Positions 17,968 to 53,606 of a DNA stretch of 64,000 bases are shown here, piece after piece. The stretch lies in the NCBI RefSeq assembly GCF_900095135.1, contig NZ_LT605205.1:372001-436000 (forward strand). The letters run 5' to 3'. Source of the DNA: Proteiniphilum saccharofermentans (GTDB lineage: Bacteria; Bacteroidota; Bacteroidia; Bacteroidales; Dysgonomonadaceae). Made by a program: the position numbers and the translations under genes. Under the pieces are notes generated by a model, which saw nothing but the letters and a program-made list of their open reading frames with translations, was not told the origin of the DNA and searched no databases. The stretch's first letter is position 1; each line of letters begins with the position of its first letter.

Positions 17968-17984
17968 AAAAATACATATTTTAC

Positions 17985-33438: not shown

Positions 33439-34782
33439 ATGACAACAAGAAGAGAATTTATCAAGAATGTCGCGATCGGCACTGCTGCCATATCTGTCGG
33501 AGGTGTATTACCTGGCTTCAGTGCAAAAAGTTATAACAATATTGTCGGCGCCAATGAAAAAATTAGAATGGGTGCTATCGGGGTAAATTCACGGGGGAAT
33601 GCATTGGCCGGAGGATTTGCAAAGGAGAAAGGCTGCGAGATAGCGTATGTATGCGATGTAGACAAGCGTGCCATGGAAAAATGTATCTCCAACGTGGTAA
33701 AAATTGCAGGTAATACACCAATAGGGGAGAAGGACATCAGAAAATTATTGGAGAAGAAAGATCTTGATGCCGTTATTATTGCAACACCCGAGCACTGGCA
33801 TGCACCCGGTGCACTTATGGCTATGAAAGCAGGAAAACATGTATATCTGGAAAAACCAACCAGTCACAATCCTGCTGAGGACGAAATATTGATGGAGGTA
33901 GTAAAAAAATACAATGTGGTTGCAGGAACAGGTATGCAGCGCAGATCATGGCCCAATGTAATTAAAGCAGTACAGGAAATAAAGGAGGGGGTTATCGGAA
34001 AGGTTTATTTTGGTAAAGCTTGGTATGTAAATAACAGACCTTCCATAGGAACAGGTAAAGTTACTGCTATACCCGATTGGCTGGATTGGGAATTATGGCA
34101 AGGTCCAGCACCGAGAGTATCTGAGTACAAAGACAATTATCTACATTACCATTGGCATTGGTTTTATAATTGGGGAACAGGTGAAGCAGGAAATAATGGA
34201 GTACACTTTCTAGATATTCTCAGATGGGGTATGGATCTTACTTATCCCTCCTATGTAAATTCTTCGGGAGGAAGATATGCTTATCAGGATGACTGGCAGT
34301 TCCCCGATACCCAAGTGGTTAATCTTGAATATGGAGATGACAAATTGATTACATGGGAAGGACGAAGTTGCAATAGTCGAAATATTGAAGAATCTTCGGT
34401 AGGTTGTGCGTTTTACGGAGAGACTGGTACGTTAGTTATTGGTGGAGGAAATGCCTATAAGGTATACGATCTGAAAAACAAGCTGGTAAAAGAAGTAACC
34501 AGTGAAATGTCGTTTAAAGCCGGAGATATCTCGAATCCCACTCAACAACTTGATTCATTCCATTTTTCAAACTTCCTGGATGGTATCAGAAAAGGAACCT
34601 CTTTGAATGCTGATATCAATGTGGGATGTATAAGCACGACCCTAGCCCATTTAGGTAATATTGCCCAGCGCACAAAGACCACGTTCAGGACAAATCCTGT
34701 GAACGGACATATCATCAACAACCGTGCGGCAGGTAAACTCTGGAATAGGAAATACCAAAAAGGCTGGGAAATGAAATTATAA
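33439..34782 (+). CDS. Tat-exported Gfo/Idh/MocA-family oxidoreductase
   Basis: This 447-residue protein begins with a twin-arginine signal (TTRREFIK, residues 2-9, then GTAAISVGG). A Rossmann fold follows (RMGAIGVNSRG), with the family EKP triad (138-140, VYLEKPTSHNP) and a C-terminal sheet domain with WGTGEAGNNGVHFLDILRWG, where the catalytic His/Asp lie. Relatives use bound NAD(P) and oxidise sugars or glycosides; some act by an oxidation-elimination cycle (GH109 and 3-keto-glycoside systems). Folding with the cofactor before export would explain Tat. The substrate is unknown. It converges with the SusD gene of region 4. Confidence 0.88.
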   Translation: MTTRREFIKNVAIGTAAISVGGVLPGFSAKSYNNIVGANEKIRMGAIGVNSRGNALAGGFAKEKGCEIAYVCDVDKRAMEKCISNVVKIAGNTPIGEKDIRKLLEKKDLDAVIIATPEHWHAPGALMAMKAGKHVYLEKPTSHNPAEDEILMEVVKKYNVVAGTGMQRRSWPNVIKAVQEIKEGVIGKVYFGKAWYVNNRPSIGTGKVTAIPDWLDWELWQGPAPRVSEYKDNYLHYHWHWFYNWGTGEAGNNGVHFLDILRWGMDLTYPSYVNSSGGRYAYQDDWQFPDTQVVNLEYGDDKLITWEGRSCNSRNIEESSVGCAFYGETGTLVIGGGNAYKVYDLKNKLVKEVTSEMSFKAGDISNPTQQLDSFHFSNFLDGIRKGTSLNADINVGCISTTLAHLGNIAQRTKTTFRTNPVNGHIINNRAAGKLWNRKYQKGWEMKL

Positions 34783-34810
34783 ACTGTTTTTGAAAATTCT
34801 CTTTTTATTC

Positions 34811-34860
34811 CGCCGGGGAAGTATGTAAAATATGATATATGCTTCCTCCGGCGTTTTTCT
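34811..34860 (+). terminator. Terminator of the oxidoreductase gene
   Basis: CGCCGG-G-GAAG.../CTTCC-T-CCGGCG stem with inner AT pairs and a TTTTTCTTTCTT tail, about 30 bp behind the stop. Confidence 0.8.
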
Positions 34861-35036
34861 TTCTTCCGTTTCCTTCTTCTGTGGGAATAATGTGATTTTC
34901 TTGAACTGGCCAGCCCATAAGGAAATCCCCTCGTGATCATTGATTTGTTTAGCCAATTCACCGATCTTTTTTACTATCGGTGGTGTATATTTCCGTTCCA
35001 GCCTTTTAAAAAAAATTCCTCAAGACAAAGAAAACC

Positions 35037-35077
35037 TTTTTGGGGCATATAACTTTTTACAAGATCTGCCCCAAAAA
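35037..35077. terminator. Terminator at the end of the susCD pair
   Basis: A perfect 11-bp stem TTTTTGGGGCA/TGCCCCAAAAA (35037-35047, 35067-35077) with a 19-nt loop. T-runs on both strands allow it to work in both directions; it stands 6 bp behind the SusD stop. Confidence 0.8.
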
Positions 35078-35083
35078 GAGTCA

Positions 35084-36703
35084 TTATTCCCACCCCGGAT
35101 TTTGTTTTAATTCCGGATTTAAAGTAATTTCTTGTTGGGGTATTGCCCATAGATAGAAATGATCTGGGAAACCTCTCTGATGACGTCCTTGTGTACCGGT
35201 GAATTCTCTCATCCACACCCCATCCAATAAATTTTTGGCAATCCTCCATCTACGGATATCCGAATAACGTTGTCCCTCTCCGCAAAGCTCAATTTTTCTT
35301 TCATGGCGTATCCTTTCACGCATTTGATCTTTATTCAGGCCTGTTGGCAGACCAGGCATGCCAGCTCTGTTGCGTACTGCATTTACAGCATCGTAAACCG
35401 ACTGATCAGGAGATGACAATGCTTCATTTTGTGCTTCTGCATACATCAACATCACATCAGCTAAACGGATAAGTGGGATATTTTGAGGTGTATACAAACG
35501 CAAAGAGTATACAGAACCCGTTTCCACAAATTTCCTCCAAGCATAGCTGCCATTTTGCCAAACAATTTGATAAGAATCGGGAGCACTTGTAACAGGGAAT
35601 CTGTAGGTAAACACTACATCTCCTTTACCGACAAACGTTGACCATGGAACTATAATCGATTGTTGTAAACGAGGGTCTCTATTTTCAAATAATCTCTTGA
35701 CAGATGCTTCGTCATGCCAGTTCTCGGCAACATTAGGATCGAAAGGTTCTCCTTTCGCATTTGTAAAATTGCTGAAATCGAATGGAGCACCGTCTATCAT
35801 TTCGTACGAATTCACTAATTCATTCGTCGGACGTGTATATTGAGAAGCCGATGTAGCATTGGAAGAGGTACTGGCGCCATAGGCCCTATCTGTTTGTATT
35901 CCATGTCCAGCCTCTTCTATATATTGTACGTCAAAAATGACTTCACTGTTGTTATTTCCTGCCACACGGAATAAAGTATGATAATCATCAAGCAATTCAC
36001 GATCGCTTTTTTCCATCAGTTCCTTAAAGTCAGCAGCAGCTTTTGCATACTCTTTAGCCCAGAGGTGGGCTTTGCCACGCATTGCTAATGCTGCCCATTT
36101 GGTGGCACGTCCGATATCAGTGCCTGTATAACTAGCAGGTAATAGTGCATATGCATCAGTCATGTCCTTAACAATGAATTCATATACATCTTTTTCTGTA
36201 TCTCGAGGCTTGTATGCTTCACTGGGATTCATCGGGAAATCATAAATTGGAACGCCTCCAAAATAATCCCATAGTTTAAAATAGAAGTATCCTCTGAAAA
36301 ACTTGCTTTCTCCCAGGCAACGATCTTTAATCTGGCTATCCATTGTAATATCTGGTATATATTTAAGAGCAGTATTTGCCCGGTAAATACCTTTATAAAA
36401 GATACCCCAAGAGTTTAAGAAAAATCCTGCATTTGCGGGGTATGATCCTGTTGTAAGTCCGATATTTAATGAATGGTATGAGATATCTGAGAAATCATCC
36501 ATCATTCCATATATTACGATGTTATTTGTAAATTCTCGATTTGCATGATAAAGGGAGTTAGTTCCCAATATTGCATTTTCTTGAGTTGTCCAAAAACCTC
36601 CTTCTGATAATCCAACCAACGAATTGCGGTTCAAAAAACCATCATCGCAAGAAGATAGAAGACAGATCGATAGCAAGATTAATATTATATTCTGTTTTTT
36701 CAT
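35084..36703 (-). CDS. SusD/RagB family lipoprotein (region 4, pair 1)
   Basis: This 539-residue lipoprotein (LLSSC, C19) has the SusD start DGFLNRNSLVGLSEGGFW, TPR-type helices around ESKFFRGYFYFKLWDYFGGVPI, and the C-terminal RIRHERKIELCGEGQRYSDIRRW ... LWAIPQQEITLNPELKQNPGW. It should bind glycan and close the partner SusC. It begins 12 bp after SusC. Its glycan is unknown. Confidence 0.93.
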   Translation of the reverse strand: MKKQNIILILLSICLLSSCDDGFLNRNSLVGLSEGGFWTTQENAILGTNSLYHANREFTNNIVIYGMMDDFSDISYHSLNIGLTTGSYPANAGFFLNSWGIFYKGIYRANTALKYIPDITMDSQIKDRCLGESKFFRGYFYFKLWDYFGGVPIYDFPMNPSEAYKPRDTEKDVYEFIVKDMTDAYALLPASYTGTDIGRATKWAALAMRGKAHLWAKEYAKAAADFKELMEKSDRELLDDYHTLFRVAGNNNSEVIFDVQYIEEAGHGIQTDRAYGASTSSNATSASQYTRPTNELVNSYEMIDGAPFDFSNFTNAKGEPFDPNVAENWHDEASVKRLFENRDPRLQQSIIVPWSTFVGKGDVVFTYRFPVTSAPDSYQIVWQNGSYAWRKFVETGSVYSLRLYTPQNIPLIRLADVMLMYAEAQNEALSSPDQSVYDAVNAVRNRAGMPGLPTGLNKDQMRERIRHERKIELCGEGQRYSDIRRWRIAKNLLDGVWMREFTGTQGRHQRGFPDHFYLWAIPQQEITLNPELKQNPGWE

Positions 36704-36715
36704 CTCTTTTTTTAT

Positions 36716-39700
36716 TTAAAATGTTAGATTTAAACCAATAACACATTGTTTCATAAGAGGATAATCCATTGAGGTGTTTTCTGGATTATATCCTTCGAAA
36801 CTAGTGAACGTAAAGTAATTTTCAAGATTTGCATAGATTCTTAATCTTTCAATTTGAAATTTCGATATCATTCTTTTAGGTAAAGAATATCCCAGTTGAA
36901 TCGATTTTATCCTGAAATAAGATGTGTCATATAGCCAATAATCACTATAATAAGTGTTAGATGTTCCTGCAATCTGTAGACGCGGATATTTAGTTGATCT
37001 GTTTTCCGGAGTCCAGTGATCTAATACATTAGTCCTTAACAAGAAACCTTCATTTATATTGAAACTATTAATTCCATCCTGCCCCCAATATCCTTTTGAT
37101 CCAGTCACGCCGTGTCCTACAATGCTGAAATCTAACCCTTTGTATGCCGTATTGATATTTATGCCGTAAGTCATTTTTGGAAGGGTTGAATAATCTTTAA
37201 TTACTCTATCTTCTCTATCAAAAACCTTGTCTCCGTTGGTATCTTTATAAAGTATATCACCTGGTTTAGGAGTACCGCCTAGGTCTGTACTAAAGGAATA
37301 TCCTTCTGCTAATAACTGGTCTATTTCCGTCTGATTTTGTATAATGCGATCGAATTCGAGAACATAGAAAGCTCCATAGGGGCTTCCTTCCTTTATGATT
37401 GTTGCTCCGCTTATTGACTCATCGCCATATTTAACGACTTCATTATTTATTGTTGATAAGTTACCATTGATACTATATGAAAAATCTTTTCCAATATTAC
37501 CATAGTAGGTCAATTGCAACTCTACACCCTTATTACTCATTTCTGCAATATTTTGCCAAGGAGCAGTAAGGTTTCCCAATACATATGGTACTGGAATAGT
37601 TGTTAATATGTCATTGGTCGTTTTATTATAATATTCGGCACTTAATGATAACTTATTCTTTAGGAGGACTAAATCTAAACCTATATTTGTCATGGTAGTG
37701 GTTTCCCATTTGATTTTGCTGTTAGACAGTGCAGTAGGAGCAACTCCTTGCTGGAGACTTCCTCCGAATGGATATTTTAAAGAATTGTATATAGCTTGAT
37801 AAGCATAATCCCCAATTCTATTATTACCAAGTTTACCCCAAGATCCCCTTATTTTAAAATCATCGAAAATAGTTTTCAAAAATTGAGCAAAGGATTCCTC
37901 TGAAACTCTCCAACCAGCCGAGAAAGAAGGAAAAAAGCCCCACCTGTTATCTTTTGAGAATCTAGAAGAACCATCGTACCGACTATTCGCTTCGAATAAG
38001 TATTTGCCTTTATAATCATAGTTAATGCGTCCGAAGTAAGATCTGAGAGCATCGTCGGTTCCTGAACCTTCTATGGAACTCATAAGCACACCAGCGTCCA
38101 TTATGTATATAGCATCGTCTCCTAAAATATCTTCCTTGGTGGCATTAAATTTATCCATACGGTTATATTGTTGGTCAAAACCCACCAGAGCAGCAAAATT
38201 ATGCTCTTTATTCAAAGAATAATTAAAGCGTAATAATGTATTCACAATAGTTGTATAATTCCTCTGGCTACCATTAAATAATTTATCTTCATTCAGACCT
38301 CCAGACTCTTCTGTTTCTGTTTGAAAATTCCAGACGGTATACGGTCTGTAATATTCCCAATTACGCCTATTATCGAAATTAAACCCGAAGCTGCTTTCCC
38401 ATTCCATATATTTCAGGAATTTTATCTTTTTGTAGACCTTTAATCCTAACTTTTGTCTTTCATAATTTCCACGTATATTATCTACGTATGCACGTGGATT
38501 CTTTCCTATAGCTAAACCCGGAAACATTTCTCTTCCATAGCGGCCATCCTCGGATTTTGGTATTACCCCAGGGGTTGTATTTTTTATTAGATTAAAAAAT
38601 TGAATTACATCGATAGGATCTCTATCAGACCATGACCCGAATACATTTCCACCTATATCAAGCCAGTTATTGACCTTGGAGTCTGCACTTAATCGGAAAG
38701 AATATTTTTTATATCCTGAGTTATCTATAATACCTTTATTGTCAAGGTAACCAGCAGATAATGAGAAGTTATTTTTGTTATTCCCTCCTCTAATTGTTAG
38801 ATTATGTTCAGTAAGAACAGAAGTGTTGAGCATTTCGTCATACCAGTTGGTATTTGGATAAAGCGGATTTCCTTTTGCTGATTCCAGCCTCCATTCTTCG
38901 ATTAAGTTATTTGGAAACTGTTCACGACCATACGCTGCATTTACCATCTCCATATGAGTTGCCATATCGGAGATGAATTCGATATTATTAGCAGCATTTT
39001 GCCAACCAACATATCCATTGTAGGTGACATTTACTTTCTCTTCTGAACCTCTCTTAGTAGTAACAAGGATAACTCCGTTAGCGGCACGCGAACCATATAT
39101 TGCAGAAGAAGCGGCGTCTTTAAGAACTGACACGCTCTCCACATCGTTCGGATTAACATCATTCAGTGCACCTGGTACCCCGTCAATTATTACTAAAGGT
39201 GAAGAGTCGTTCATTGTTCCTCTACCCCTTACCATGATATTTACATTTTCAGCTCCAGGGGTTCCCGATAGTTGTGAAATATTAAGTCCAGCACTTAAAC
39301 CAGTTAATGCCGAAGAAAGATTTAGTGTTGGACGACTAGTCATTGCCTCGTCAAACTTTACGGCTGAAACAGCTCCTGTCAGGTTTTGTTTTTTCATTGT
39401 ACCATAACCGACAATAACAACTTCGTCAATGCCTAAAATACTTTCAGACAATAGAATGTAATACTCCGTTTTAGAGTCTATTACAATCTCTTTGTCTTCA
39501 AAGCCTACGTATGAAACCACTAAGTTGCTTCCTTCAGCTACATCTAAGGTAAACAGACCATTTATGTCTGTAATGGTACCATTCGTTGTCCCTTTTTCTA
39601 CAATATTCACTCCTATAAGAGGTTCCCCGGAATCATCCGTAACACTCCCTTTTATTCTCTTCTTTTGATGAGAAACCAGTGGATTAGTCTGGGCGGAGTT

Positions 39701-39814
39701 ATTATTTTCCATGTCATAGGAACCATGTGCAGATGCAACAAATCCGGATAATCCAAAAAAGACACAACACACAAATACAACTGTTCGTAAAATACATTTT
39801 TTACACTCTTTCAT
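36716..39814 (-). CDS. SusC/RagA TonB-dependent transporter (region 4, pair 1)
   Basis: This 1032-residue outer-membrane importer has a signal peptide (VFVCCVFFGLSGFVASAHG), an extra about 20-residue Asn/Gln-rich segment, a regulatory domain (KRIKGSVTDDSGEPLIGVNIVEKG), the TonB box area (GIDEVVIVGYGTMKKQ), a plug (VMVRGRGTMNDSSPLVIIDG-like, AIYGSRAANGVILVTTKRG) and a barrel ending VIGLNLTF. It lies downstream of the heparinase-fold gene with 380 bp between. Confidence 0.94.
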   Translation of the reverse strand: MKECKKCILRTVVFVCCVFFGLSGFVASAHGSYDMENNNSAQTNPLVSHQKKRIKGSVTDDSGEPLIGVNIVEKGTTNGTITDINGLFTLDVAEGSNLVVSYVGFEDKEIVIDSKTEYYILLSESILGIDEVVIVGYGTMKKQNLTGAVSAVKFDEAMTSRPTLNLSSALTGLSAGLNISQLSGTPGAENVNIMVRGRGTMNDSSPLVIIDGVPGALNDVNPNDVESVSVLKDAASSAIYGSRAANGVILVTTKRGSEEKVNVTYNGYVGWQNAANNIEFISDMATHMEMVNAAYGREQFPNNLIEEWRLESAKGNPLYPNTNWYDEMLNTSVLTEHNLTIRGGNNKNNFSLSAGYLDNKGIIDNSGYKKYSFRLSADSKVNNWLDIGGNVFGSWSDRDPIDVIQFFNLIKNTTPGVIPKSEDGRYGREMFPGLAIGKNPRAYVDNIRGNYERQKLGLKVYKKIKFLKYMEWESSFGFNFDNRRNWEYYRPYTVWNFQTETEESGGLNEDKLFNGSQRNYTTIVNTLLRFNYSLNKEHNFAALVGFDQQYNRMDKFNATKEDILGDDAIYIMDAGVLMSSIEGSGTDDALRSYFGRINYDYKGKYLFEANSRYDGSSRFSKDNRWGFFPSFSAGWRVSEESFAQFLKTIFDDFKIRGSWGKLGNNRIGDYAYQAIYNSLKYPFGGSLQQGVAPTALSNSKIKWETTTMTNIGLDLVLLKNKLSLSAEYYNKTTNDILTTIPVPYVLGNLTAPWQNIAEMSNKGVELQLTYYGNIGKDFSYSINGNLSTINNEVVKYGDESISGATIIKEGSPYGAFYVLEFDRIIQNQTEIDQLLAEGYSFSTDLGGTPKPGDILYKDTNGDKVFDREDRVIKDYSTLPKMTYGININTAYKGLDFSIVGHGVTGSKGYWGQDGINSFNINEGFLLRTNVLDHWTPENRSTKYPRLQIAGTSNTYYSDYWLYDTSYFRIKSIQLGYSLPKRMISKFQIERLRIYANLENYFTFTSFEGYNPENTSMDYPLMKQCVIGLNLTF

Positions 39815-40194: not shown

Positions 40195-42948
40195 TCAATG
40201 ATTATTATAAGACCTGCCAGGTGAAATATAGTACAAACCCTTGGATGCACTAAAGAAACAAGTATTCTTTCCCTGTTCAACTTTGAAATTAAGATTTATG
40301 TTCTTGTCCGGACTATATATATTCCAGAATCCCGGTTTCAAATCTGTAAGTAGAATCTGATATTCAGAATCATCTGACACAGTCATTGAAAAAGGAGATT
40401 GAATTAGTTGAGAACCGGAACTCATACACAAAATCCGATCAGAAAGACGGAGAATATATTTGTCATTGTCTTCCTGTAAATTTATGGGTAATGGGGGAGT
40501 GTCATCTGAAGTCATTTGAAAAATGGTCAGAAAACGATGGCGTTTTTCCTCATTTTCTGGAAAAAATATAATTTGATATCCATTGGCCTCAGGCGAGTCG
40601 GAGGAAATCCGATCCATAGTTCCTAGAATATTTTCCGGATCTTTTCTGTGTGATATTTCCAACTTTAAGTTTTCAGGCAAAGGACGCAACATCTTAACAT
40701 GGGTTTTACCAACAACTCCTTTCTTTTGGTTTCGGAGAACTATACTTGAATCGGACAAAAAAGGTTTCTCCAATGTGTTTATTTTCCAGAATTTGTCGAA
40801 CTCAGCTTTGGACGTACTAATATCATCTGATAGTATGATTACTGCAGGAGTGTCGTCTCTGTCCAAGTTGAAGAAACAAAAACTGCGGGTATAATTACTG
40901 ACTTTGCTCGTGTATGCACCTGTTAAATCAACTTTAAAACAGCTATATAAGGGTTTTTGTAAGGATGGGCCAAAGTCAGAATAAATCACCCTCCCATTAT
41001 CAAACCAAGGATCCGACATTACTTCTTGAGGTGTTTCCGGAACCCTTTGATTAAATTTTGTTCCCCCATCATTCTTGGCTCTGCGATAAATTTCTTCTTT
41101 AGGGTCAATAACCAGCATCATACTGTGTGCAATAGACCTTTTATTAAAATTATAATCATAAGGAATTCCATAAGCAACGTAGAGTCCAAGATCACAGATC
41201 TGTAACCCGCGGTAATACAGTTGAATTGCTCCCGCATCAGCATGTTGATGATTCCCAAAATGATACCCTCCTCCCTTTATTTCTGCAACAACATCGTTAC
41301 TGTTGTCGTTCATATTCCAACCTGTTCGGGCAATTAACCCACCCAAAACAGACCCAAAGTCAATAGATAAGGGTAGGGAAGAAATGTCATACTCAGGTTC
41401 AAGGTCAGGGTCATTTAGTAACAAAAACAAAACAGGATTATCTGGAAGACCTCCCTGACGTTCAAACTCGGCTTTTATGATCGGATCATTTGCATATGAG
41501 TAATCTAATAGCATCGTTTGAGGGTTCTTCCAATAAACACCACTTTTGGAAAACATGTCTCCGTCACGTAGCATCTCTCCATCAGGGAGTCGCATATATA
41601 ACCAATAGTTTGTTAAACCCATGATGTTGTCATCAAAAACACGCATACCCGCCATTCGATAAAAGAGCCATGCAGCATGCATTTCCCATCCGTGTCTATA
41701 TGCCCCGTAATCTACTCCTTGACTATGGCGAGGAGACTGATATTCAAAAGATCTCATAGGTACTAATTCTTCTAGAATAAGATAGGAGGTATAACGATAT
41801 GGTTCCGGATCTTCATCATAAATAGCGATACTCATAGCCAGAAGATCTCTATTAACTTGTGCTTCACTTGCATGACCGCTAACAATGCTTTCTTTGAATG
41901 GAGGCCATCCGATTTCCATATTATCAGCGAGCCGCATCATTTCGGAATATAGAATCTTTCTATCCCCTTCATGAATGATGTCATAACACCAGTCATAAAC
42001 AAGGGCTGTTGTGTAGATGGCTCTTCCTATATCCCTCGTTATATCCCCCGATTTTACATTTCCAAATTCGAGAACGGATAAATAATCGAGTATTAGTCTT
42101 ACGGCTTCGTTTCCTATCTTGAGATTCCCAGTCATGAGATAATAAAAAGCTTTTTCCTGTACAACCCTTTCTAACACTGGATTCTGGGCTATTTCCCTTG
42201 TTGGATTAAATTCAAAAGGAAAAGGAATTAATACTTTTTCTTTTAGGTTCTTCCAAACTGAGAGATTTTCTCCTTTAGTTAACCTCTTTTGTATGACAGG
42301 TAATATATCTTTATCTACCCAAAGTCGGGGTCTGCTTGTCGGCGGGACAATTTTAGGATGATAATTTGCTACTCCTGGAGGAATTGTCAACGGAATATAA
42401 CTTTCTATTTCAACAGCACCTAATAAAATACCTTTTGGTAGCCAAACTTTTAATACTTGTTTTCCCCCTTTCAGTTGAAAGCGTCCTAATGAGTGGTTCG
42501 TATAATTATATTCATCAGATATTATTCGCTTTGTGATACGTTCATTGTCTATCTGAATTTTGGCAAAACGGGTCTCTACTTTACTCCCAACTTCTATTTC
42601 TTCATCTCTTATGACAGAAGTGCTTATCGTATAAATACCCGACATGGGAATTTCTATATGAAATATTGCATCCGGATCAGTATCTGTTTGATCATGTACT
42701 TTTTCTACAACATCATCTTTTAATATCACCCAGTTTAAATGGAGGTCGCTCTCTCTTTTTACTATCTTTGTGGTTTTATTATTAATCTTTGCTTTGGAAA
42801 CGTCTAATACAGATATATAACCATTTTTCTTTGATGATTCACTTGCTAAGGGGAAAGAAGATTGCGCAAGAATATCGATGCTAAGTGAGCTAAAAACAAT
42901 ATAAGTTATTAAACAATACAGGATATAGTTCTTAAGCATTCCTTTCAT
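40195..42948 (-). CDS. Heparinase II/III-fold protein A (putative polysaccharide lyase)
   Basis: This 917-residue exported protein has a signal peptide, an N-terminal beta-sandwich (about 45-185), a DUF4962/heparinase N-type alpha-barrel opening with PTSRPRLWVDKDILP, and a C-terminal heparinase II/III sheet domain. Residue positions counted from the longer frame are: H365 in SGHASEAQ, Y420 in QGVDYGAYR, and H573/H575 in HFGNHQHADAG. These fit the His/Tyr active site of (alpha/alpha) toroid lyases, which break uronate-containing chains by beta-elimination. The exact PL family and substrate cannot be told. The ATG at 42948 is chosen because the longer frame begins with TTG. It has a paralogue at 45.8-48.5 kb. 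Confidence 0.8.
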   Translation of the reverse strand: MKGMLKNYILYCLITYIVFSSLSIDILAQSSFPLASESSKKNGYISVLDVSKAKINNKTTKIVKRESDLHLNWVILKDDVVEKVHDQTDTDPDAIFHIEIPMSGIYTISTSVIRDEEIEVGSKVETRFAKIQIDNERITKRIISDEYNYTNHSLGRFQLKGGKQVLKVWLPKGILLGAVEIESYIPLTIPPGVANYHPKIVPPTSRPRLWVDKDILPVIQKRLTKGENLSVWKNLKEKVLIPFPFEFNPTREIAQNPVLERVVQEKAFYYLMTGNLKIGNEAVRLILDYLSVLEFGNVKSGDITRDIGRAIYTTALVYDWCYDIIHEGDRKILYSEMMRLADNMEIGWPPFKESIVSGHASEAQVNRDLLAMSIAIYDEDPEPYRYTSYLILEELVPMRSFEYQSPRHSQGVDYGAYRHGWEMHAAWLFYRMAGMRVFDDNIMGLTNYWLYMRLPDGEMLRDGDMFSKSGVYWKNPQTMLLDYSYANDPIIKAEFERQGGLPDNPVLFLLLNDPDLEPEYDISSLPLSIDFGSVLGGLIARTGWNMNDNSNDVVAEIKGGGYHFGNHQHADAGAIQLYYRGLQICDLGLYVAYGIPYDYNFNKRSIAHSMMLVIDPKEEIYRRAKNDGGTKFNQRVPETPQEVMSDPWFDNGRVIYSDFGPSLQKPLYSCFKVDLTGAYTSKVSNYTRSFCFFNLDRDDTPAVIILSDDISTSKAEFDKFWKINTLEKPFLSDSSIVLRNQKKGVVGKTHVKMLRPLPENLKLEISHRKDPENILGTMDRISSDSPEANGYQIIFFPENEEKRHRFLTIFQMTSDDTPPLPINLQEDNDKYILRLSDRILCMSSGSQLIQSPFSMTVSDDSEYQILLTDLKPGFWNIYSPDKNINLNFKVEQGKNTCFFSASKGLYYISPGRSYNNH

Positions 42949-42963
42949 ATTCTTTGATGCTGG

Positions 42964-42971
42964 CAAAATTA
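42964..42971 (-). promoter_or_regulatory. -7 box before heparinase-fold protein A
   Basis: The minus strand reads TAATTTTG, 16 bp before the chosen ATG; the mRNA would have a very short leader. Confidence 0.4.
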
Positions 42972-45699: not shown

Positions 45700-45788
45700 G
45701 CTTATAGTTACCAGAAAATAAATTTAAGTTTTCACTTCTTCATGTACTTATTTTGCCGATGAATATGAATAAATAAAAGAGCATAGGA

Positions 45789-48536
45789 TTACTTTCTTGG
45801 AGTGATTTTATATGTCCCGGAGGTCATTTGGAAGTAAATTGTATTTTTATCAGGAAGTACTTCAACGTCAAAGTTGACACTACCAGGATCATTGGAGATA
45901 TTCCATAGTCCTTCTTTAAGCCCCATTATCACTACTTGCTGTGTAGGGTGGCCACATTCCGGCACTACCATGGGAAATGGACTGTCGGTTAACTCTGTCT
46001 CTTTATTGATCGCAAGCAGATAATCTTCAAAGGAGAGAAAATAGTTGTCGTTTGTTTCTGTACAACTGATATCAATTGGTTTTTGATCCCCTGCAACCAC
46101 TTGAAATGAAGCAAGGAAGTGATCAGATTTTTGTGGTTTGAGAGGTGATACCATAAAACGATGCCCATTCGTTTCCGGAAGATTTCTAGTCATTTCTCTG
46201 CTGGGAATTTCATATTTTGTGCCAAAAGAGCTATTAGCATCTCTGCCGCTGAGGAGTTCTACTGAGTAGGTACCGCTTTTTGGAGTCAAAAGTTGTACGT
46301 AGGTTTTTCCTACCCTCTCTCTCATTCTGTTCTCTAGTACAAATCTCCCATTAGAGATTACAGGTTTTGTGTGACTGTTAATTTGCCAATATTTTTTAAA
46401 ATTCGGATTTGCTGTTATCATTTTATCCATTAGTACAATAAGGGCAGGTATGGTGTCATTCTCAAGATTGACAAAACAGAACTGCCTTGTATAATCTTCT
46501 ATCTTGTCAGAATATGCGTTCTTTAAATTTACTGAAAAATAACTGAACCGGGGTGTTTTGCTTGAAGGGCCGAAATCTGTTGAGATAACGGTTCCATTAT
46601 TGAACCAGGGGTCGTTCATTGCAACTTCCGGAGAGTCAGGATGTCGTTGGTTAAATCTTGTCCCTCCATCATTGGATGTGACCCTATTATCAAAAAACTC
46701 ATCCGGATCAACCGCCAGCATCATACTGTGAGAGATGGATCTTTTGTTGAAGTTCATGTCGTAAGGTGTACCGTAAAAACCGTACACCCCTAGGTCGGCA
46801 ACCTGAAATCCACGATAAAAGAGTTGTAACGATCCGGCATCGCTATGTTGATGATTCCCGAAATGGTATCCTCCTCCTTTGATCTCGGCTACCACATCAT
46901 CACTCTCCATCCCGATATTCCAGCCTGTTCTGGCTATCATCGATCCGAGTATAGGCCCAAAATCGATACTTAAGGGGAGATCTTTTAGGTTTTCGTCAGC
47001 TTTCAGGTCAGGATCGTTAAGCAATAAAAAGAGCATGGGATCGTTAATGGCTCCTCCCTGACGCATAAATTCTCCTTTCAGTTTAGAATCATTCGCGTAT
47101 GTATAAAAGAGAAATAGAGTTTCCGGGCTTTTCCAGTAGTAGAATTCTTCCGGTTTACCGGTATTAAATCCATCCCCATCGCGAAGCATTTGACCATTTG
47201 GAAGCCTCATATACAACCAATAATAAGGAAAACGTTTCAAATTCTTGTCAAAAACCTCCTTACCTGCCATCCTGTAAAAGAGCCATGCTGCATGAATATC
47301 CCACTGACTTCTGTATGCTCCGTAATTTACACCCTGGTTATGTCTTGGTGATTGGTATTGCCAGTTTCTCATGGGAACCAATTCCTCAAGTATACGGTAT
47401 GAACAATACTTATATGGCATAGGGGCCTCGTCGTATATGGCAATGCTCATTGCGAGTAAATCCCTATGTATTTGTGCTTCACTGCCGTGTCCGGTCAGCA
47501 CTGACTGTTTGAAAGGAGGCCATCCAATCTCCATTTCTTCCGCGAGCCGTATCAGGTTTTCGAATAATATTTTCCGGTCATTCGTACTCATTAATTCGTA
47601 ACACCAGTCATATACCAAAGAAGCACTGTATATTGCTCTCCCAATCTCCCGTGTAATATCCAGCAGATTTCCAAACTCAACCCTGGAGAGATATCCTGTC
47701 ATTAGCTTGATGGCTTCCTCCCCTATAACTTTGTCGTTTGTCATCAAATAGTAGAAAGCTTTATATCTGGCAGTAGTTTCCAGTTCTGGGTCGTAGGTTA
47801 TTTCTTTATTATATTCATATTCTATGTTATAAGGTGTAAGGGCTTTATTAGATAGTTTTTCCCAATATACTTTATTCTCGCCTTTATTGAGGCGCTCTTT
47901 TATGATATCCAGGGATTGATTGTTAAGCCAGAGACGAGGTCTGCCGGGAGGAGGTGTATATGGGGGAATGTAATCTGCCACACGATCTGGTATTGGAGGA
48001 GGAGTATAGCTCTGAATTTGGATATAGTCAAGCCTTACCCCCTTTGGAAGCCATAGTTTTAAACTTTGTTTGTCTCCTTTGAAATAAAATATGCCTAAAG
48101 TCTGTGTTCTCACATCCCAGGGTACGTAAATTACCCTTTGAGTAGGACGTTCATTATCAATTTGGATTCTTGTGTAGAGTGATTCAAATTTACTCGTTGC
48201 CTTCTTCATCAATTCAGCACCTTCACAATCTGTGAAGGTGTGGGTTCTCAGAATATAGCGTCCTTGCGGCAATGTAATTTCAAAGAAAAGATCAGGATCC
48301 GTTCTTTCTCCTTTAATTGCACTTGAAGCTTTTTCTTTAAGAGCTATACCCTTATATTGTGACAATCTATTATCATTTACAACCTCCATATATTGGGGAT
48401 TAATAATAGATGACTCTGCCTCAAATTTGACAGAAATACTTTTAGAGTTATCATCCTGCATAGTGCTTGAGTATGCAGCCATATAAAAACCAAAAATATT
48501 AAGAAAGAGCAAATAAAAGGATATTATAACTTTCAT
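45789..48536 (-). CDS. Heparinase II/III-fold protein B (putative polysaccharide lyase)
   Basis: This 915-residue exported paralogue of protein A has the same layout: signal peptide, N-terminal beta-sandwich (FEAESSIINPQYMEVV region), alpha-barrel opening PPGRPRLWLNNQSLD, SGH-type LTGHGSEAQIHRDLLAMSIAIYDE, QGVNYGAYRSQW with the active-site Tyr, and HFGNHQHSDAGSLQLFYRG with the histidines. Over the core the two proteins keep long identical blocks, for example GGGYHFGNHQH and FNKRSI-HSMML. Two copies may cut different linkages or act from different ends. It follows DoxX after 54 bp. Confidence 0.8.
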   Translation of the reverse strand: MKVIISFYLLFLNIFGFYMAAYSSTMQDDNSKSISVKFEAESSIINPQYMEVVNDNRLSQYKGIALKEKASSAIKGERTDPDLFFEITLPQGRYILRTHTFTDCEGAELMKKATSKFESLYTRIQIDNERPTQRVIYVPWDVRTQTLGIFYFKGDKQSLKLWLPKGVRLDYIQIQSYTPPPIPDRVADYIPPYTPPPGRPRLWLNNQSLDIIKERLNKGENKVYWEKLSNKALTPYNIEYEYNKEITYDPELETTARYKAFYYLMTNDKVIGEEAIKLMTGYLSRVEFGNLLDITREIGRAIYSASLVYDWCYELMSTNDRKILFENLIRLAEEMEIGWPPFKQSVLTGHGSEAQIHRDLLAMSIAIYDEAPMPYKYCSYRILEELVPMRNWQYQSPRHNQGVNYGAYRSQWDIHAAWLFYRMAGKEVFDKNLKRFPYYWLYMRLPNGQMLRDGDGFNTGKPEEFYYWKSPETLFLFYTYANDSKLKGEFMRQGGAINDPMLFLLLNDPDLKADENLKDLPLSIDFGPILGSMIARTGWNIGMESDDVVAEIKGGGYHFGNHQHSDAGSLQLFYRGFQVADLGVYGFYGTPYDMNFNKRSISHSMMLAVDPDEFFDNRVTSNDGGTRFNQRHPDSPEVAMNDPWFNNGTVISTDFGPSSKTPRFSYFSVNLKNAYSDKIEDYTRQFCFVNLENDTIPALIVLMDKMITANPNFKKYWQINSHTKPVISNGRFVLENRMRERVGKTYVQLLTPKSGTYSVELLSGRDANSSFGTKYEIPSREMTRNLPETNGHRFMVSPLKPQKSDHFLASFQVVAGDQKPIDISCTETNDNYFLSFEDYLLAINKETELTDSPFPMVVPECGHPTQQVVIMGLKEGLWNISNDPGSVNFDVEVLPDKNTIYFQMTSGTYKITPRK

Positions 48537-48590
48537 CTGATTTTTTTCTTATCGGGATTGCCCCGAAATCCAATATTCCGAACTATCTGA

Positions 48591-49106
48591 TCATGAAGGG
48601 TTATTGTCCGATTTATTTTTCTTGTTCAAGAAAATAAATCGATCTAGTCCCGTGATATGGCTTGAAGGGAATACCACCAAAATAAGAAGTGCAGCTATTT
48701 CAATCAAGTTCCTATTTACAATCCAATAATTGCCTTCAACATAGGCTTCAACCCCCAAGTCTGCAAAAGGAGGGTAAGAGAGATAATAAAAAGCCAAAAG
48801 AGCCATACCAAAAAATGAAGATAGTCTGCAGAATAGACCGACAAATAAACTTAATCCAATTAAGATTAATCCCCATTCATTCAAAGTATCGGCAATGTTT
48901 AATATTTGGTCTGATTGTGCGATCGATTTGAAAAAGGAAGAGAACGGTCCTACCGAGTTGAGCAAATAATTTTTGGCAGTCCAGCCCGGAGTATAGATTT
49001 TTACCAATCCCTCGTATAAAAAATGCCATCCAATAAGAACCCGTAGTATCGTTAATGCACTTATTTGCCAATTTGAATAATCTGACTTTATAGTGTTATG
49101 CTTCAT
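48591..49106 (-). CDS. DoxX family membrane protein
   Basis: This 171-residue protein has four hydrophobic helices and the DoxX/thiosulfate:quinone-oxidoreductase pattern ILRVLIGWHFLYEGLVKIY ... GLILIGLSLFVGLFCRL ... NRNLIEIAALL. DoxX-like proteins are often placed with periplasmic redox enzymes and may pass electrons to quinone. Here it lies 30 bp after a Tat-type oxidoreductase and before a heparinase-fold gene. That place makes it a candidate electron acceptor link for the exported oxidoreductases, though this is inference only. Confidence 0.85.
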   Translation of the reverse strand: MKHNTIKSDYSNWQISALTILRVLIGWHFLYEGLVKIYTPGWTAKNYLLNSVGPFSSFFKSIAQSDQILNIADTLNEWGLILIGLSLFVGLFCRLSSFFGMALLAFYYLSYPPFADLGVEAYVEGNYWIVNRNLIEIAALLILVVFPSSHITGLDRFIFLNKKNKSDNNPS

Positions 49107-49136
49107 TTTATTTAAATTTTATCAGTATGGAAATAA

Positions 49137-50675
49137 TTAGCCTATAATCGCTTTTTCATTTATGCTGTCCCATCTTACGGGTTTTTTATGCACATATGCC
49201 AGATTGGCCAGATTGAAAGTAACCGATTCCTCAAAACCTTTATCAATGTCGCAACTGGGTTTCCCATGCCCCCGAATAGCATCAATCCACTCTTTCACAT
49301 GCAGGAATGTAACATCGATTATTCTTCCGTCTATGAATGTGGGTCCATATCCGCCTTTAAAATAGGCTCTTGATGTTGCTGTCGAGACCGCATCGATATC
49401 CATTCTGGGCTCATAATAATAAAGAGGTTCCTCAGAGTCTATTTTTACGTCTTTAAACATTTCTGAATTACGATCCTTGGACATTCGAACAGCGCTGTCA
49501 ATATCTAAAGATGCTTCGGAACCTAAGATTCGGGATTGCCGGAAGTTTCCATTCTTTAGGGTAGCATCATATGTCATGGATAAGCCTTTTTCGGGATAAC
49601 TGAAGATGACATTGAGTACATCCGGCATATCCCCGTGAGTCTTATAGTAATATTGTCCACCCAGGGCTACCACTGATTCTGGTATTCCCAGGTCCAGCAC
49701 TTGATTCACACAATCATACCAATGTGCAAAGTCGTTTCCTGTAACACTGGTCCCATAATCACTGTAACGTTGCCAACTGAAGAAACGCTTAAGGTCAAAC
49801 TCATGCCATGGTGCGTTACATAAAAATTCCTCCCAGTTTATATTGCTCTCATTCCCGAGTTTATGATCGAAGGCATCATCCCTTATCCAGGCACCAAACA
49901 AAGTGTTTCTGTTGGTATAAGTTTCAACCTGTGTTATTTCGCCCAATAGGCCTTTTTGGACTAATTCACGTCCTACCTTATAACTCATCTGTTGCCTGTT
50001 TTGATGTCCTAGTTGAAAAACGACACCGGTTTGTTTTATAGTATCCCTTAGCTCGATGGCTTCTTCTATACTATGTGTCATAGGCTTTTCCAGGTAGACA
50101 TGCTTCCCGGCTTTGGCCGCAGCTATAGCAATAGGAGCATGTGAATGATCCGCTGTAGCTATTACAATTGCATCAATATTGTCGCTTTTTACCATGTCCC
50201 GGTAGGACTGGAATATTTCGGCGGCTTTTCGTTCCTGATTATTTCCTCCGAGAACATTATGCCGGGAGATTTCTACTCCCCGTTGGGTGTGGACATCAAA
50301 AACGTCACAAATACCCGTTATTTCAACATTCAGGTCTTCCTGTGCCATTACATCCCGTAGCCATTTTGAGGCTTCACCATTGGTCGTGTGTTGTTTTATT
50401 ATATCAGGATGGAGATATCCGAATTTCTGCAACAATTGCTCACCGCGCCAACCGTTTCCCACCAGTCCAATCCGGAGTTTATTTCCCTGATTGCCAGTCG
50501 GAGGTACTAGTTTTTCATAAGGTGCTTCAAGTCTGTCTATTTTTAATCTCTGGTTGTAATCAATACTTTTTTTCCTGATTTGTTTAGTGATATTATCTTT
50601 AAACCCAAAAGCAAAATATCCCAAAAAAGGGACTGTCGCCAGCCCTTTTAAAAAATCCCTCCTCAGTAGCTTCAT
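49137..50675 (-). CDS. Tat-exported Gfo/Idh/MocA-family oxidoreductase (long form)
   Basis: This 512-residue protein has a Tat-type signal (LRRDFLKGL), an unusually long spacer (about 25-65), then the Rossmann fold RIGLVGNGWRG (68-78), the EKPMTHS motif and a C-terminal half with RYSDYGTSVTGNDFAHWYDCVNQVLDLG. The spacer makes it longer than the usual 330-450 residues of this family. It should use NAD(P) on a sugar or uronide in the periplasm. It lies between the other Gfo/Idh gene (59 bp) and DoxX. Confidence 0.87.
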   Translation of the reverse strand: MKLLRRDFLKGLATVPFLGYFAFGFKDNITKQIRKKSIDYNQRLKIDRLEAPYEKLVPPTGNQGNKLRIGLVGNGWRGEQLLQKFGYLHPDIIKQHTTNGEASKWLRDVMAQEDLNVEITGICDVFDVHTQRGVEISRHNVLGGNNQERKAAEIFQSYRDMVKSDNIDAIVIATADHSHAPIAIAAAKAGKHVYLEKPMTHSIEEAIELRDTIKQTGVVFQLGHQNRQQMSYKVGRELVQKGLLGEITQVETYTNRNTLFGAWIRDDAFDHKLGNESNINWEEFLCNAPWHEFDLKRFFSWQRYSDYGTSVTGNDFAHWYDCVNQVLDLGIPESVVALGGQYYYKTHGDMPDVLNVIFSYPEKGLSMTYDATLKNGNFRQSRILGSEASLDIDSAVRMSKDRNSEMFKDVKIDSEEPLYYYEPRMDIDAVSTATSRAYFKGGYGPTFIDGRIIDVTFLHVKEWIDAIRGHGKPSCDIDKGFEESVTFNLANLAYVHKKPVRWDSINEKAIIG

Positions 50676-50734
50676 AGTTTGTTATTATAAAATAGGTTTA
50701 TATAATTTCTTCGGAAATATCTTTATTCACATTA

Positions 50735-52156
50735 TCACAGTTTCCAGGGTTTCCTGTATTCGTAGGATAAATATCTGTTTGCAATATCGGAATTTGTGAA
50801 TCGTTCATTTACTGCATCCCATTCAAGTCTTTCACGCGTCATCATGGCGATCGTCCCAAGGTGTGCCATTGTCGTGGATCTATGGCCTATTTCTAATGTA
50901 GCCCAAGGTTCTTCACGCGATTTTACACAATCCAGAAAATTCCGTATCAGGCTGAAGGCACTATTCTTATAACTCCCATCAATCAGAAGAGTATCATCTT
51001 TATCCAGAGAATAGTCTTCCTGATTTATCATGGGTTTCCACGTTTGGAACTGTCCGGCACTGGTAGGAGTGATCTTGTAGTCATTTTCTCCTGTGTGTAA
51101 TGTCCCTTTTGTTCCCCTTAATTCAAGGAATCCATGGGGGATAAAACTGGCGGAACTTGCTTCCAAAATGCTCAACGTAACCAGTACACCCGATCTGAAT
51201 TCATAGGTAACATGCATCGTATCGGGAATTGTACGGTCATCGTCGACAACATATTTACCTCCATGCGCACTGACGGCAATAGGAGCTTCTTCATTTATCA
51301 GCCATCGAAGCAGGTCTAAATAATGAACCCCGTTATTCGAGATCTGGTTGGCATAATCTTCCCACCAACGGAACATATACGGTGCTATATTATATTGATA
51401 TGGCCTGTAAGCTCTTGGTCCCAGCCACATATCCCAATCAAAATCTTTGGGTGGAGTTTCGGGTTGTAATCTCCCGATACCATTCGGATACATATTACTT
51501 ACATGACATGCTGAAGCAAAAGTTATTTTACCAATTTTCCCGGCAGGTATTTCTTTCGCCAATTTTTGAAAAGTAGGTGCTCCCCGTCTGTTGAGTCCAA
51601 CGCTTATTATTTGCCTGCTGCTTTTTCCCACTTCAACCATCCTGCGTCCTTCAGCAATTGTTTTCGACAAAGGTTTCTCAACAAACACATCTTTTCCGGC
51701 ATTGATGGCATCAATTGTTTGCAAAGCATGCCAGTGATCGGGTGTTGCAATACATACAGCATCGATACTTTTATCTTCTAACAATTGACGGTAATCCTTA
51801 AACTGTTTTACGCTTTTGGGAAAATTCTCACCCATCTTAGGAATCCTACTACCCATGTCTTTTTTATAACGGTCAATAACCGTTGAATAATCGCGAGTGA
51901 CATAAGGTTGGTACACATCACACAAGGCAGCCACTTCACAATCCGGTTGCTCCATAAATAAATGCAAAAGCTGTGTTCCACGATTGCCGACACCGATAAA
52001 ACCAACACGGACTCTATCATTTGCTCCGATAATCCTCTGTCTCGTGTCAATTATAGGGGCTTTCGGTGAAGCAATACCGGCTCCGGAAATCGATATTCCG
52101 GCTGCAACCATCGATGATTTTTTGAGGAAATCTCTACGCGTTGTTTTTTCTTTCAT
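50735..52156 (-). CDS. Tat-exported Gfo/Idh/MocA-family oxidoreductase
   Basis: This 473-residue protein starts with a twin-arginine motif (TTRRDFLKKS, residues 5-14) and hydrophobic AAGISISGAGIA. The Rossmann fold reads VGFIGVGNRG (51-60), then FVEKPLSKT with the active EKP, and NQISNNGVHYLDLLRWL in the C-terminal domain. Its fold and size match the exported sugar dehydrogenases of Bacteroidota glycan loci. Together with its neighbour it may form a pair, for example an oxidising and a reducing partner. Confidence 0.88.
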   Translation of the reverse strand: MKEKTTRRDFLKKSSMVAAGISISGAGIASPKAPIIDTRQRIIGANDRVRVGFIGVGNRGTQLLHLFMEQPDCEVAALCDVYQPYVTRDYSTVIDRYKKDMGSRIPKMGENFPKSVKQFKDYRQLLEDKSIDAVCIATPDHWHALQTIDAINAGKDVFVEKPLSKTIAEGRRMVEVGKSSRQIISVGLNRRGAPTFQKLAKEIPAGKIGKITFASACHVSNMYPNGIGRLQPETPPKDFDWDMWLGPRAYRPYQYNIAPYMFRWWEDYANQISNNGVHYLDLLRWLINEEAPIAVSAHGGKYVVDDDRTIPDTMHVTYEFRSGVLVTLSILEASSASFIPHGFLELRGTKGTLHTGENDYKITPTSAGQFQTWKPMINQEDYSLDKDDTLLIDGSYKNSAFSLIRNFLDCVKSREEPWATLEIGHRSTTMAHLGTIAMMTRERLEWDAVNERFTNSDIANRYLSYEYRKPWKL

Positions 52157-52181
52157 AACTTATTTTTTTATGTGTGATTAC

Positions 52182-53606
52182 TTATTTATTGAAAATAGCT
52201 TCGTAATGAGGGATGGGATCAAAAATGCCTCCCCCATTGTTGAAATATTCGTCGTTAGTATAATAAAACCCCTCTTTCACACCCACCCATGAAGCATCAT
52301 GCTGTGGAAAATATTGCTGCATTTTATTCCAATTTACATAGTTTTGATGCCCGTTGCTCTCCACCAAGCCTAAATTTCCCAAGCCGGGAAATGATTTAAG
52401 CCGTGCAGCAATATTCTTATTCCATTCTACCAGCACTGGATTGACTGTCAGGTCAGCACAGAAACAGGGAATACCCCTATCTGTGGCAGCTTTGGCTATT
52501 TTCATTGTCATACTGAGTGTTTTTGCGATGGGTTTGAGTGCTATTGCTTTGTATCCCATCTGAATCCGCTCGATGGTATCTTTATCGGTATGCGCACTTT
52601 CATCCGCCGCTAAGCGTATAGGGATATCTGACACATCTATTTCCATCTTCTCAGGAAAAGGTTCTTCGATCATCACAATTTGATCGAATGCTCCAATTTT
52701 CCCGGCATAATCTAAAAATCTGTTGAACATATCTTTTGATTCATACCTGCCGTTGGCATCGAAGTAATAAGGCAATTTCTCATTTTCTGTGTAGGGAGTC
52801 CGGATATCTTTCAATATGTTGTGTATTTCCCGAAGCCGGTTTTTATCTTTCTCAAGCATTTCCTGCTGGGTACCCGCTTGCCCGATTTTTATTTTCATAA
52901 AGAAGTATCCCATATCCACTTCTTTTCTGAGTCCTTCAGGATTTACATTATAGGAAATCAGGGGAATTGCAGCCAGCTTCGCATGTTTTTCCGAGAACGT
53001 GGATTGGAACTCCTGAGGTATCAATCTGTCAAAATTAGTAATCCCATTCTCTTTTGCATAAAGGAGCCAGAGGGCATTATCGACCGATACCAGGGCATTC
53101 AGCGCAAATGTTTTACGAAGGTCAGGATTGGACGTTACCAATTTTCCATATTTATAAATTTCTTCAAATAACGGATCAATCAAATCCATAGGAGAACTAA
53201 ACGAAACTTTATTAAGCAGATGAAGTGCCCGCTCTGTCAAGGCATACATATAGGTATTCCCTCCTGCTTCAGAATGGGAGGAGAAAATTTTTTCATCCGA
53301 CCACAAAACACTTTGTGTTCCCAACCCGATAGCATGTTTACCGTTCTCACTCTGCAGATAACTGATAGCTTGCCATAACTCCGAGAGGTATCCACCTTTA
53401 AACCCGAAAGGACTAATGAGCGGTTCCCGTTCGAATTGAGAACTGGTATGGGCAATTGTAATACTTCCTTGCAAAGACTGTAGAGAATCTGCATATGAGG
53501 ATGTATCTGCTTCTTTATTTGTAGTCTGCATGCAACCTGAATTCAGAATGGAGATTCCGCCTAACGCTCCGATACTGCTTAATATAAATTGTCTTCGAGA
53601 TGTCAT
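52182..53606 (-). CDS. Exported enolase-superfamily lipoprotein (dipeptide-epimerase-like motifs)
   Basis: This 474-residue protein has a Tat-like start (TSRRQFILSS) and a lipobox (LNSGC, C25), a rare combination. The mandelate-racemase/muconate-type barrel shows K238-x-K240 (FMKIKIG), metal ligands D283 (YFDANG), E314 (VMIEEP) and D335 (AADES), and K358 (IALKPIAK). The K-x-K plus distal K pattern is that of the MLE/dipeptide-epimerase and o-succinylbenzoate-synthase subgroup, rather than acid-sugar dehydratases. It may racemise or dehydrate a released fragment. It is separated from SusD by a very strong hairpin. Confidence 0.8.
   Translation of the reverse strand: MTSRRQFILSSIGALGGISILNSGCMQTTNKEADTSSYADSLQSLQGSITIAHTSSQFEREPLISPFGFKGGYLSELWQAISYLQSENGKHAIGLGTQSVLWSDEKIFSSHSEAGGNTYMYALTERALHLLNKVSFSSPMDLIDPLFEEIYKYGKLVTSNPDLRKTFALNALVSVDNALWLLYAKENGITNFDRLIPQEFQSTFSEKHAKLAAIPLISYNVNPEGLRKEVDMGYFFMKIKIGQAGTQQEMLEKDKNRLREIHNILKDIRTPYTENEKLPYYFDANGRYESKDMFNRFLDYAGKIGAFDQIVMIEEPFPEKMEIDVSDIPIRLAADESAHTDKDTIERIQMGYKAIALKPIAKTLSMTMKIAKAATDRGIPCFCADLTVNPVLVEWNKNIAARLKSFPGLGNLGLVESNGHQNYVNWNKMQQYFPQHDASWVGVKEGFYYTNDEYFNNGGGIFDPIPHYEAIFNK

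Follow-up and report, generated by a model that had tools for sequence, protein, structure and literature searches.

Free NAD is unavailable in the periplasm, and the oxidation of glycosides there needs an electron sink. How a bacterium might provide one is the question raised by a run of minus-strand genes of Proteiniphilum saccharofermentans that lies in a window of 64,000 nucleotides (the whole stretch analysed here; G000:C1:372001-436000, in a genome of 4.41 Mb made up of a single contig). An earlier note on this DNA had picked out five proteins with twin-arginine translocation (Tat) motifs and suggested that glycosidic bonds are broken in the periplasm by redox chemistry, with a DoxX membrane protein as the link to quinone. 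Our analysis partly supported this interpretation. The run holds two conserved modules, one formed by DoxX and the Gfo/Idh/MocA dehydrogenase GfoT2, the other by a second protein of that family, GfoT3, and the enolase-superfamily enzyme ENO. Our reading of the whole, which we hold tentatively and at a little less than even confidence, is that the locus serves a uronic-acid glycan and works by redox chemistry in the periplasm, and that DoxX and GfoT2 would deliver electrons to menaquinone.

Two modules in one minus-strand run

Pfam scans placed GfoT1 (33439..34782, plus strand), GfoT2 (49137..50675, minus strand) and GfoT3 (50735..52156, minus strand) in the Gfo/Idh/MocA family, the three PF01408 scores being 51.7, 65.5 and 72.3 bits (gathering cut-off 24). 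They also recognised the aldo/keto reductase AKR (44556..45575, minus strand; Aldo_ket_red, 5.9e-21) and DoxX (48591..49106, minus strand; PF07681, 26.0 bits, gathering cut-off 23.6). The heparinase II-like lyases HepL1 (40195..42966, minus strand) and HepL2 (45789..48536, minus strand) were assigned by NCBIfam and, for HepL2, which was the one searched, by PDB matches, and ENO (52182..53606, minus strand) was assigned by the fold of its model. The families named in the earlier note were thereby confirmed, as were the coordinates of its five Tat-motif proteins, four of which do share a single minus-strand run with DoxX and both lyases. GfoT1 stands apart, on the plus strand and outside this run, so that the five cannot be treated as one set. 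From ENO to HepL2 the genes are separated by gaps of 25-59 bp, and GfoT3, ENO, GfoT2 and DoxX are packed together with the SusC2 and SusD2 genes at gaps of 18-91 bp.

The partnership with DoxX was seen in every locus checked. We took 30 genomes of the order, our own included, and checked the best GfoT2 locus in each (about five candidates per genome were fully scored, and weaker GfoT2 matches lie outside this count). A same-strand DoxX gene was present in 30/30, at gaps of -89 to 169 bp and identities of 40-100%; DoxX came first in 27 loci and GfoT2 in 3. The association also held in the opposite direction. When 395 genomes of the phylum were searched with a profile of the DoxX subfamily (E<=1e-20, with up to 9 candidates per genome being scored), all 12 loci of the subfamily adjoined a GfoT2 homologue. 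In the genome studied, each of the four GfoT2-like genes found (in the window and at 2101, 3869 and 4051 kb) has a DoxX, and the two remaining PF07681 genes lack a neighbouring GfoT2. Among 80 ENO loci, GfoT3 homologues occurred in 42, and a stand-alone DoxX of this kind appeared only in 3, which also hold GfoT2. A fourth ENO locus carries it as a fusion (L070:13596-15185), in which a DoxX domain (residues 17-165) is followed by a GfoT2-like RR segment and by a C-terminal domain with no match in Pfam, NCBIfam or PDB; such a fusion was seen once among 45 distinct DoxX-like proteins. Of 23 ENO-bearing genomes chosen from other phyla by their record titles, most of which had more candidates than were scored, 4 gave matches to the GfoT2 profile at E<=1e-50, and these covered profile positions 123-403 only, without the N-terminal region.

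The genome also holds a second EPIM-DHDPS-M20-DoxX-GfoT2 cluster and another DoxX-GfoT2 pair (L206, G000:C1:4048000-4058000, and L205, G000:C1:3859000-3872000). The EPIM, DHDPS and M20 genes of the second cluster are 63-77% identical to those of the window locus, and next to the other DoxX-GfoT2 pair lies an Nramp gene that shares 94% identity with that of the locus; duplicated blocks are therefore suggested.

The second module recurs as well. ENO neighbourhoods were counted in 66 loci, after exclusion of 14 of the 80 in which no ENO open reading frame (ORF) was called, mostly because it was hidden under a longer overlapping ORF. ENO was found with GfoT3 and/or a Tat-motif TIM barrel in 54 of these 66. 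In 38 of the 66 a GfoT3 homologue belonged to the same run as ENO; the RR motif is present in 40 of 42 GfoT3 homologues, and 58 of the 66 ENO relatives carry a Tat motif. ENO is 86% identical to its counterpart in a locus of 'Bacteroidia bacterium 43-41' and 65-73% to those of Petrimonas and Proteiniphilum metagenome-assembled genomes, identities that fit a probable placement of the organism in Dysgonomonadaceae. ENO also occurs in Verrucomicrobiota and other phyla. In L074, L079 and L091 the module lies with SusC2 and SusD2 homologues, and no HepL homologue was called there. The earlier note had named a missing conserved neighbourhood as ground for giving up its proposal; because the modules recur in other Bacteroidota, this ground falls away. 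A search of the genome for the TIM barrel of the L072 type gave no match, though it had no positive control, and a different AP_endonuc_2 protein was found at 2105 kb. Five ENO loci contain a second protein of about 470 amino acids (L120:9564-10982, with relatives in L097, L127, L132 and L133); the one in L120 has no Pfam match and by eye appears to be another enolase-superfamily member.

Export signals, folds and conserved residues

The twin-arginine motifs are present in all five proteins, as RREFI in GfoT1, RRSFL in AKR, RRDFL in both GfoT2 and GfoT3, and RRQFI in ENO. When we scanned the ORFs of at least 140 amino acids over the window plus a further 36 kb or so, only these 5 of 70 carried RRx[FLI][LIVMF] within their first 40 residues; the same pattern occurred in 2 of 625 interior 40-residue windows used as control. 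A TatC gene, the sole translocase component searched for, was found in the genome; the earlier note had proposed a check for TatABC. Motif and translocase gene together lead us to infer that the cluster proteins are exported by Tat. The genome has 38 PF01408 matches, and by a looser pattern 24 of these ORFs carry an RR or KR motif, so that Tat-type Gfo proteins seem to be a habit of this organism.

In GfoT2 the N-terminal region is conserved, R5, R6, P16 and G19 being invariant in 30 sequences. At least three lysines or arginines directly follow the hydrophobic stretch in 33/33 GfoT2 proteins, compared with 9/40 GfoT3, 15/58 ENO and 13/30 TIM-barrel proteins, and the model shows a single helix over residues 5-36 (predicted local distance difference test score 83). 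This helix may be a retained Tat membrane anchor. Past the RR motif, however, 17 of 33 GfoT2 proteins have an A-x-A triplet (the window protein is without one), which makes it no rarer than in GfoT3 (18/40), and because such triplets are potential cleavage sites the anchor is only a possibility. The rest of the protein has the features of its family: G70, G73, G75, E196 and K197, of the Gly-rich loop and the EKP motif, are invariant in 30 sequences, and Foldseek matched the model to NAD-dependent Gfo enzymes, among them the glycoside hydrolase 8qc8. The use of NAD by these proteins is putative, as are glycoside cleavage and a quinone link.

The DoxX subfamily has its own set of conserved polar residues. 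R22, E32, K36 and N76 are invariant, and Y31, D73 and E136 occur in 32/33; in a small control, E32, D73, N76 and E136 were absent from both other DoxX proteins of the genome. The same small membrane family includes DoxD/DoxX of thiosulfate:quinone oxidoreductase, from which the window protein differs in having a Gfo enzyme and not DoxA as partner. We ruled out that it is a subunit of that enzyme, since the TQO_large_DoxD model gave 20.9 bits (cut-off 300).

ENO had neither a Pfam match nor a PDB sequence match, and its model has a clear enolase-superfamily fold, with dipeptide epimerases and N-acylamino acid racemases among the best fold matches. K238, K240, D283, E314, D335 and K358 are invariant in 57 sequences, and their order along the strand ends is that of the muconate-lactonizing enzyme (MLE) subgroup (KxK at strand 2, the D/E/D metal ligands, and a lysine at strand 6), a pattern that we take to be the mark of this subgroup. 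Unlike the known members, such as dipeptide epimerase 3r0u, N-acylamino acid racemase and muconate cycloisomerase, ENO combines a Tat motif with the lack of Pfam and PDB sequence matches, and its score against NCBIfam DgcA, an N-acetyl-D-Glu racemase, was 27.5 bits, below the cut-off of 400. The enolase-superfamily part of the earlier assignment therefore stands. The lipoprotein part is doubtful, for the cysteine is preceded by N-S-G and is shared by 1/7 relatives in the first alignment, in which 4/7 were without the N-terminal region.

A possible electron route and its alternatives

That Gfo enzymes can act on glycosides, as the earlier note stated, agrees with the PDB sequences closest to GfoT2 and GfoT3, 8tdf/8tdh, which PDB describes as Alistipes glucoside-3-dehydrogenase AL3. 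Behind the pair at 2101 kb comes a BT_2158_fam glycoside 3-dehydrogenase gene (at 2102851; 910.5 bits, cut-off 750), together with genes for an AP_endonuc_2 TIM barrel and for a 3-keto-disaccharide hydrolase domain. We then looked at 27 DoxX-GfoT2 neighbourhoods elsewhere, some on short contigs, for a same-strand BT_2158-like gene (at least 50% identity to the dehydrogenase of this genome, within 9 kb). Such a gene was found in 17, DUF1080 in 21 and the TIM barrel in 19. All tests together, including a DoxX within 150 bp, were passed by 13/27, and the three that failed on distance have their DoxX at 158-169 bp. The genome contains 12 DUF1080 matches, several beside Tat-motif Gfo genes (for example at 2104629, 3860532 and 4297753). 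The window proteins themselves were ruled out as BT_2158 equivalogs (NF058561, 750 bits), with 144 bits for GfoT1, 119.5 for GfoT2 and 141.6 for GfoT3.

Periplasmic glycoside oxidation is already known. According to a review, the BT2159-BT2156 operon of B. thetaiotaomicron converts glucosinolates, and BT2158 with BT2156 or BT2157 is enough in vitro (PMC12385236). The window run has Tat-type Gfo/Idh/MocA enzymes in common with that pathway and AL3; it differs in being without DUF1080, in having GfoT proteins at only 119-144 of the 750 bits, and in adding DoxX and ENO. The principle on which the earlier note drew, oxidation followed by elimination, has also been published: a protein of the sugar-phosphate-isomerase type carries out the beta-elimination of 3-keto-phlorizin in Agrobacterium (PMC10628242). 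The combination of an oxidoreductase with isomerase-type proteins in GlycDH/AtOGE/AtHYD recalls GfoT3 with the TIM barrel (PF01261) of related loci, and differs in that neither an enolase nor "Bacteroid" is mentioned in the text of that paper and that the window run is without a TIM gene. For the strict DoxX-Gfo pair and the Gfo-ENO module, no description was found among the open-licence papers that our searches listed.

The glycan itself is suggested by the remaining enzymes. HepL2 matched heparinase II of family PL21 (PDB 3e80, 1.6e-103) and in alignment to it keeps H202, E205, Y257 and H406, which we take to be the active-site residues; in HepL1, 49% identical to HepL2 and with a Pfam HepII_C match, these residues were judged by eye only. 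In contrast to genuine HepB (NCBIfam NF045571, cut-off 600 bits), both stay below the threshold (HepL1 431.8, HepL2 437.4). Beyond the window, a glucosamine-6-phosphate isomerase-type gene (NagB) and an amidohydrolase of NagA type were assigned by eye. Because Nag-type genes accompany uronate-type lyases, a polymer of N-acetylhexosamine and uronic acid is suggested, and the locus is probably, on its gene content, a SusC/SusD glycan locus for such a uronic-acid polymer. No GH88 gene was found in the locus run (the genome has 17 GH88 matches elsewhere, 14 of them over the cut-off), and neither a simple sulfatase signature, tried on the window and L041, nor Pfam scans of the locus proteins gave a sulfatase. 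Other ENO loci hold genes of the alginate lyase family (PF05426, L075:6100-7392) and of GH88 (L122:6029-7240), both of which suit uronic acids.

In the mechanism that we propose, the heparinase II-like lyases would cut the polymer at uronates, and the oligosaccharides would then be oxidised in the periplasm by the Tat-exported Gfo/Idh/MocA dehydrogenases. GfoT3 would oxidise a sugar hydroxyl and work with ENO, which, judging from its fold and residues, would remove a proton from the carbon adjoining the carboxylate, leading to uronate epimerisation or elimination. GfoT2, working at the membrane beside DoxX and perhaps tethered there through its N-terminal helix, would perform or complete an oxidation. 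In the least certain step, the GfoT2-DoxX unit would re-oxidise bound NAD(P)H and send the electrons to menaquinone, whose synthesis by the cell is probable because a MenA gene was found (234 bits over the cut-off). That DoxX and GfoT2 make up an undescribed two-subunit, membrane-bound sugar dehydrogenase, an NAD(P)-carrying Gfo protein re-oxidised by a menaquinone-donating DoxX, is a narrower proposal to which we give well under even confidence. A DoxX paired with one family of exported-type dehydrogenases, often near 3-keto-glycoside genes, is a candidate for the missing electron step. If so, glycoside oxidation in the periplasm of Bacteroidota would be linked to quinone, glycan breakdown would be tied to respiration, and the regeneration of bound cofactors outside the cytoplasm would be explained. 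ENO, which mostly comes with the TIM barrel, suggests an exported enzyme of the enolase type, as yet unstudied, that acts on acidic sugars.

Several observations weigh against this proposal. Gfo enzymes can be redox-neutral, recycling bound NAD within the catalytic cycle. The pair is sparse, with the DoxX subfamily in 9 of the 395 phylum genomes, and no known cofactor site was seen in DoxX. Potential cleavage sites in about half of the GfoT2 proteins, as given above, make the tether uncertain. No BT_2158_fam member and no DUF1080 match were found in the window run, and Pfam scans of the locus proteins gave no AP_endonuc_2 hit; partners for 3-keto-glycoside cleavage are present in related loci. 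DoxX is not named in the passages on the BT2159-BT2156 operon, and since BT2158 with BT2156 or BT2157 works in vitro, it would be dispensable for the core chemistry (PMC12385236). The partner of DoxX is also not always a Gfo enzyme, because in the L070 fusion it is joined to a domain for which no family was detected. In a rival explanation DoxX is no more than a membrane anchor or assembly partner that keeps Tat-type enzymes at the inner membrane, with bound NAD(P) recycled in the manner of glucose-fructose oxidoreductase or enzymes of the GH109 type and no electrons reaching quinone. In its favour, the fusion domain has no detected redox family, the fold of GfoT2 resembles NAD-dependent glycoside hydrolases (8qc8), and the glucose-fructose oxidoreductase precursor 1h6a is among the PDB sequence matches of GfoT2. 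A pure anchor, however, would have no need of so many conserved polar residues (R22, E32, K36, N76, D73 and E136), and we consider this explanation unlikely, though still one to be reckoned with.

The earlier note had gone too far in placing redox chemistry "instead of classical hydrolysis", as a pair of heparinase II-like lyases and SusC/SusD import also belong to the locus. One may go further and ask whether an ordinary heparinase-type locus would suffice, in which glycan breakdown falls to the lyases, SusC/SusD, esterases and cytoplasmic sugar genes, and the targets of the Tat redox proteins are side products or different substrates. The likeness of HepL1 and HepL2 to PL21 heparinase II would suit this account, and the GH88 genes elsewhere in the genome could finish the lyase products. 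It leaves aside, however, the close packing of GfoT3, ENO, GfoT2 and DoxX with SusC2/SusD2 and the recurrence of this group with SusC2/SusD2 homologues in L074, L079 and L091, where no lyase of the HepL kind was called; we regard it as improbable. Another view of ENO, that it is a periplasmic epimerase of dipeptides or N-acyl amino acids and that the run handles a peptide-bearing glycan, draws on its fold matches and its low DgcA score, on the M20 amidohydrolase of the locus, and on L053, where ENO lies near genes that by eye resemble 5-oxoprolinase subunits and a dipeptidase. The fold, however, cannot tell these substrates apart, the usual companions of ENO are GfoT3 and/or the TIM barrel, and some ENO loci hold genes for sulfatase (5), glucuronyl esterase (3), alginate lyase (2) or GH88 (2), as counted in the 95 of 127 representatives scanned. 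We therefore think a peptide substrate quite improbable and prefer uronate chemistry for ENO.

Other genes of the locus and its surroundings

At higher coordinates than ENO lie SusD2 (53698..55428, minus strand; Pfam SusD_RagB) and SusC2 (55447..58638, minus strand; Pfam Plug/TonB barrel), with homologues of 53-54% and 55-61% identity, respectively, beside the module in L074, L079 and L091. They are followed on the same strand by a double alpha/beta-hydrolase resembling DLH/AXE1 esterases (58698..61331; Pfam DLH, Peptidase_S9 and AXE1), the M20 amidohydrolase (61540..62772; Peptidase_M20, 2.4e-40), which has a 63% paralogue beside another DoxX-GfoT2 pair of the genome, and a DHDPS-type aldolase (62718..63785; 2.8e-08) conserved in L074, L079 and L091. 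The locus continues on the minus strand beyond the window to about 450.6 kb. Besides the NagB- and NagA-type genes, this part encodes an NAD-dependent epimerase, a transporter of the Nramp type, two esterases (one AXE1, the other with a glucuronyl-esterase match), three further Gfo-type proteins, ApbE, an MFS transporter and a Peripla_BP_3/AraC regulator. The greater part of this gene series, the stretch between the esterases and NagA, leads straight into ENO and GfoT3 in L061 and L067. The ApbE-type flavin transferase gene lies among the Gfo genes of the locus (L041:10643-11470; G000:C1:442642-443469).

At the other end of the run, SusD1 (35084..36703, minus strand; SusD_RagB, 7.4e-51), the TonB-dependent receptor SusC1 (36716..39814, minus strand; Pfam Plug/TonB barrel), HepL1 and PecL (43055..44269, minus strand) form a block that recurs in G679 (L202) at 58-72% identity (SusD1 72%, SusC1 70%, HepL1 58%, PecL 71%), on a contig that stops 427 bases past PecL. 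PecL is weakly like polygalacturonase PglB (NCBIfam, 18.5 bits, cut-off 600) and had no match in the Pfam scan. In G558 a GfoT2-DoxX pair was accompanied by a merely weak lyase match (24%). Beside GfoT1 lies an RbsD/FucU-type gene (32868..33302, plus strand; PF05025, 1.5e-42), weak relatives of which (29%) occur near ENO in L119 and L122, and a GfoT1 homologue (77%) adjoins ENO-GfoT3 in L067. Separate from all of these is a fructan-type locus at 14529-24005 of the window, with two GH32 proteins and a SusD recognised by Pfam and a SusC-sized ORF (20880-24005), near which a hybrid two-component sensor with a Peripla_BP_4 domain is encoded (24466-27207).

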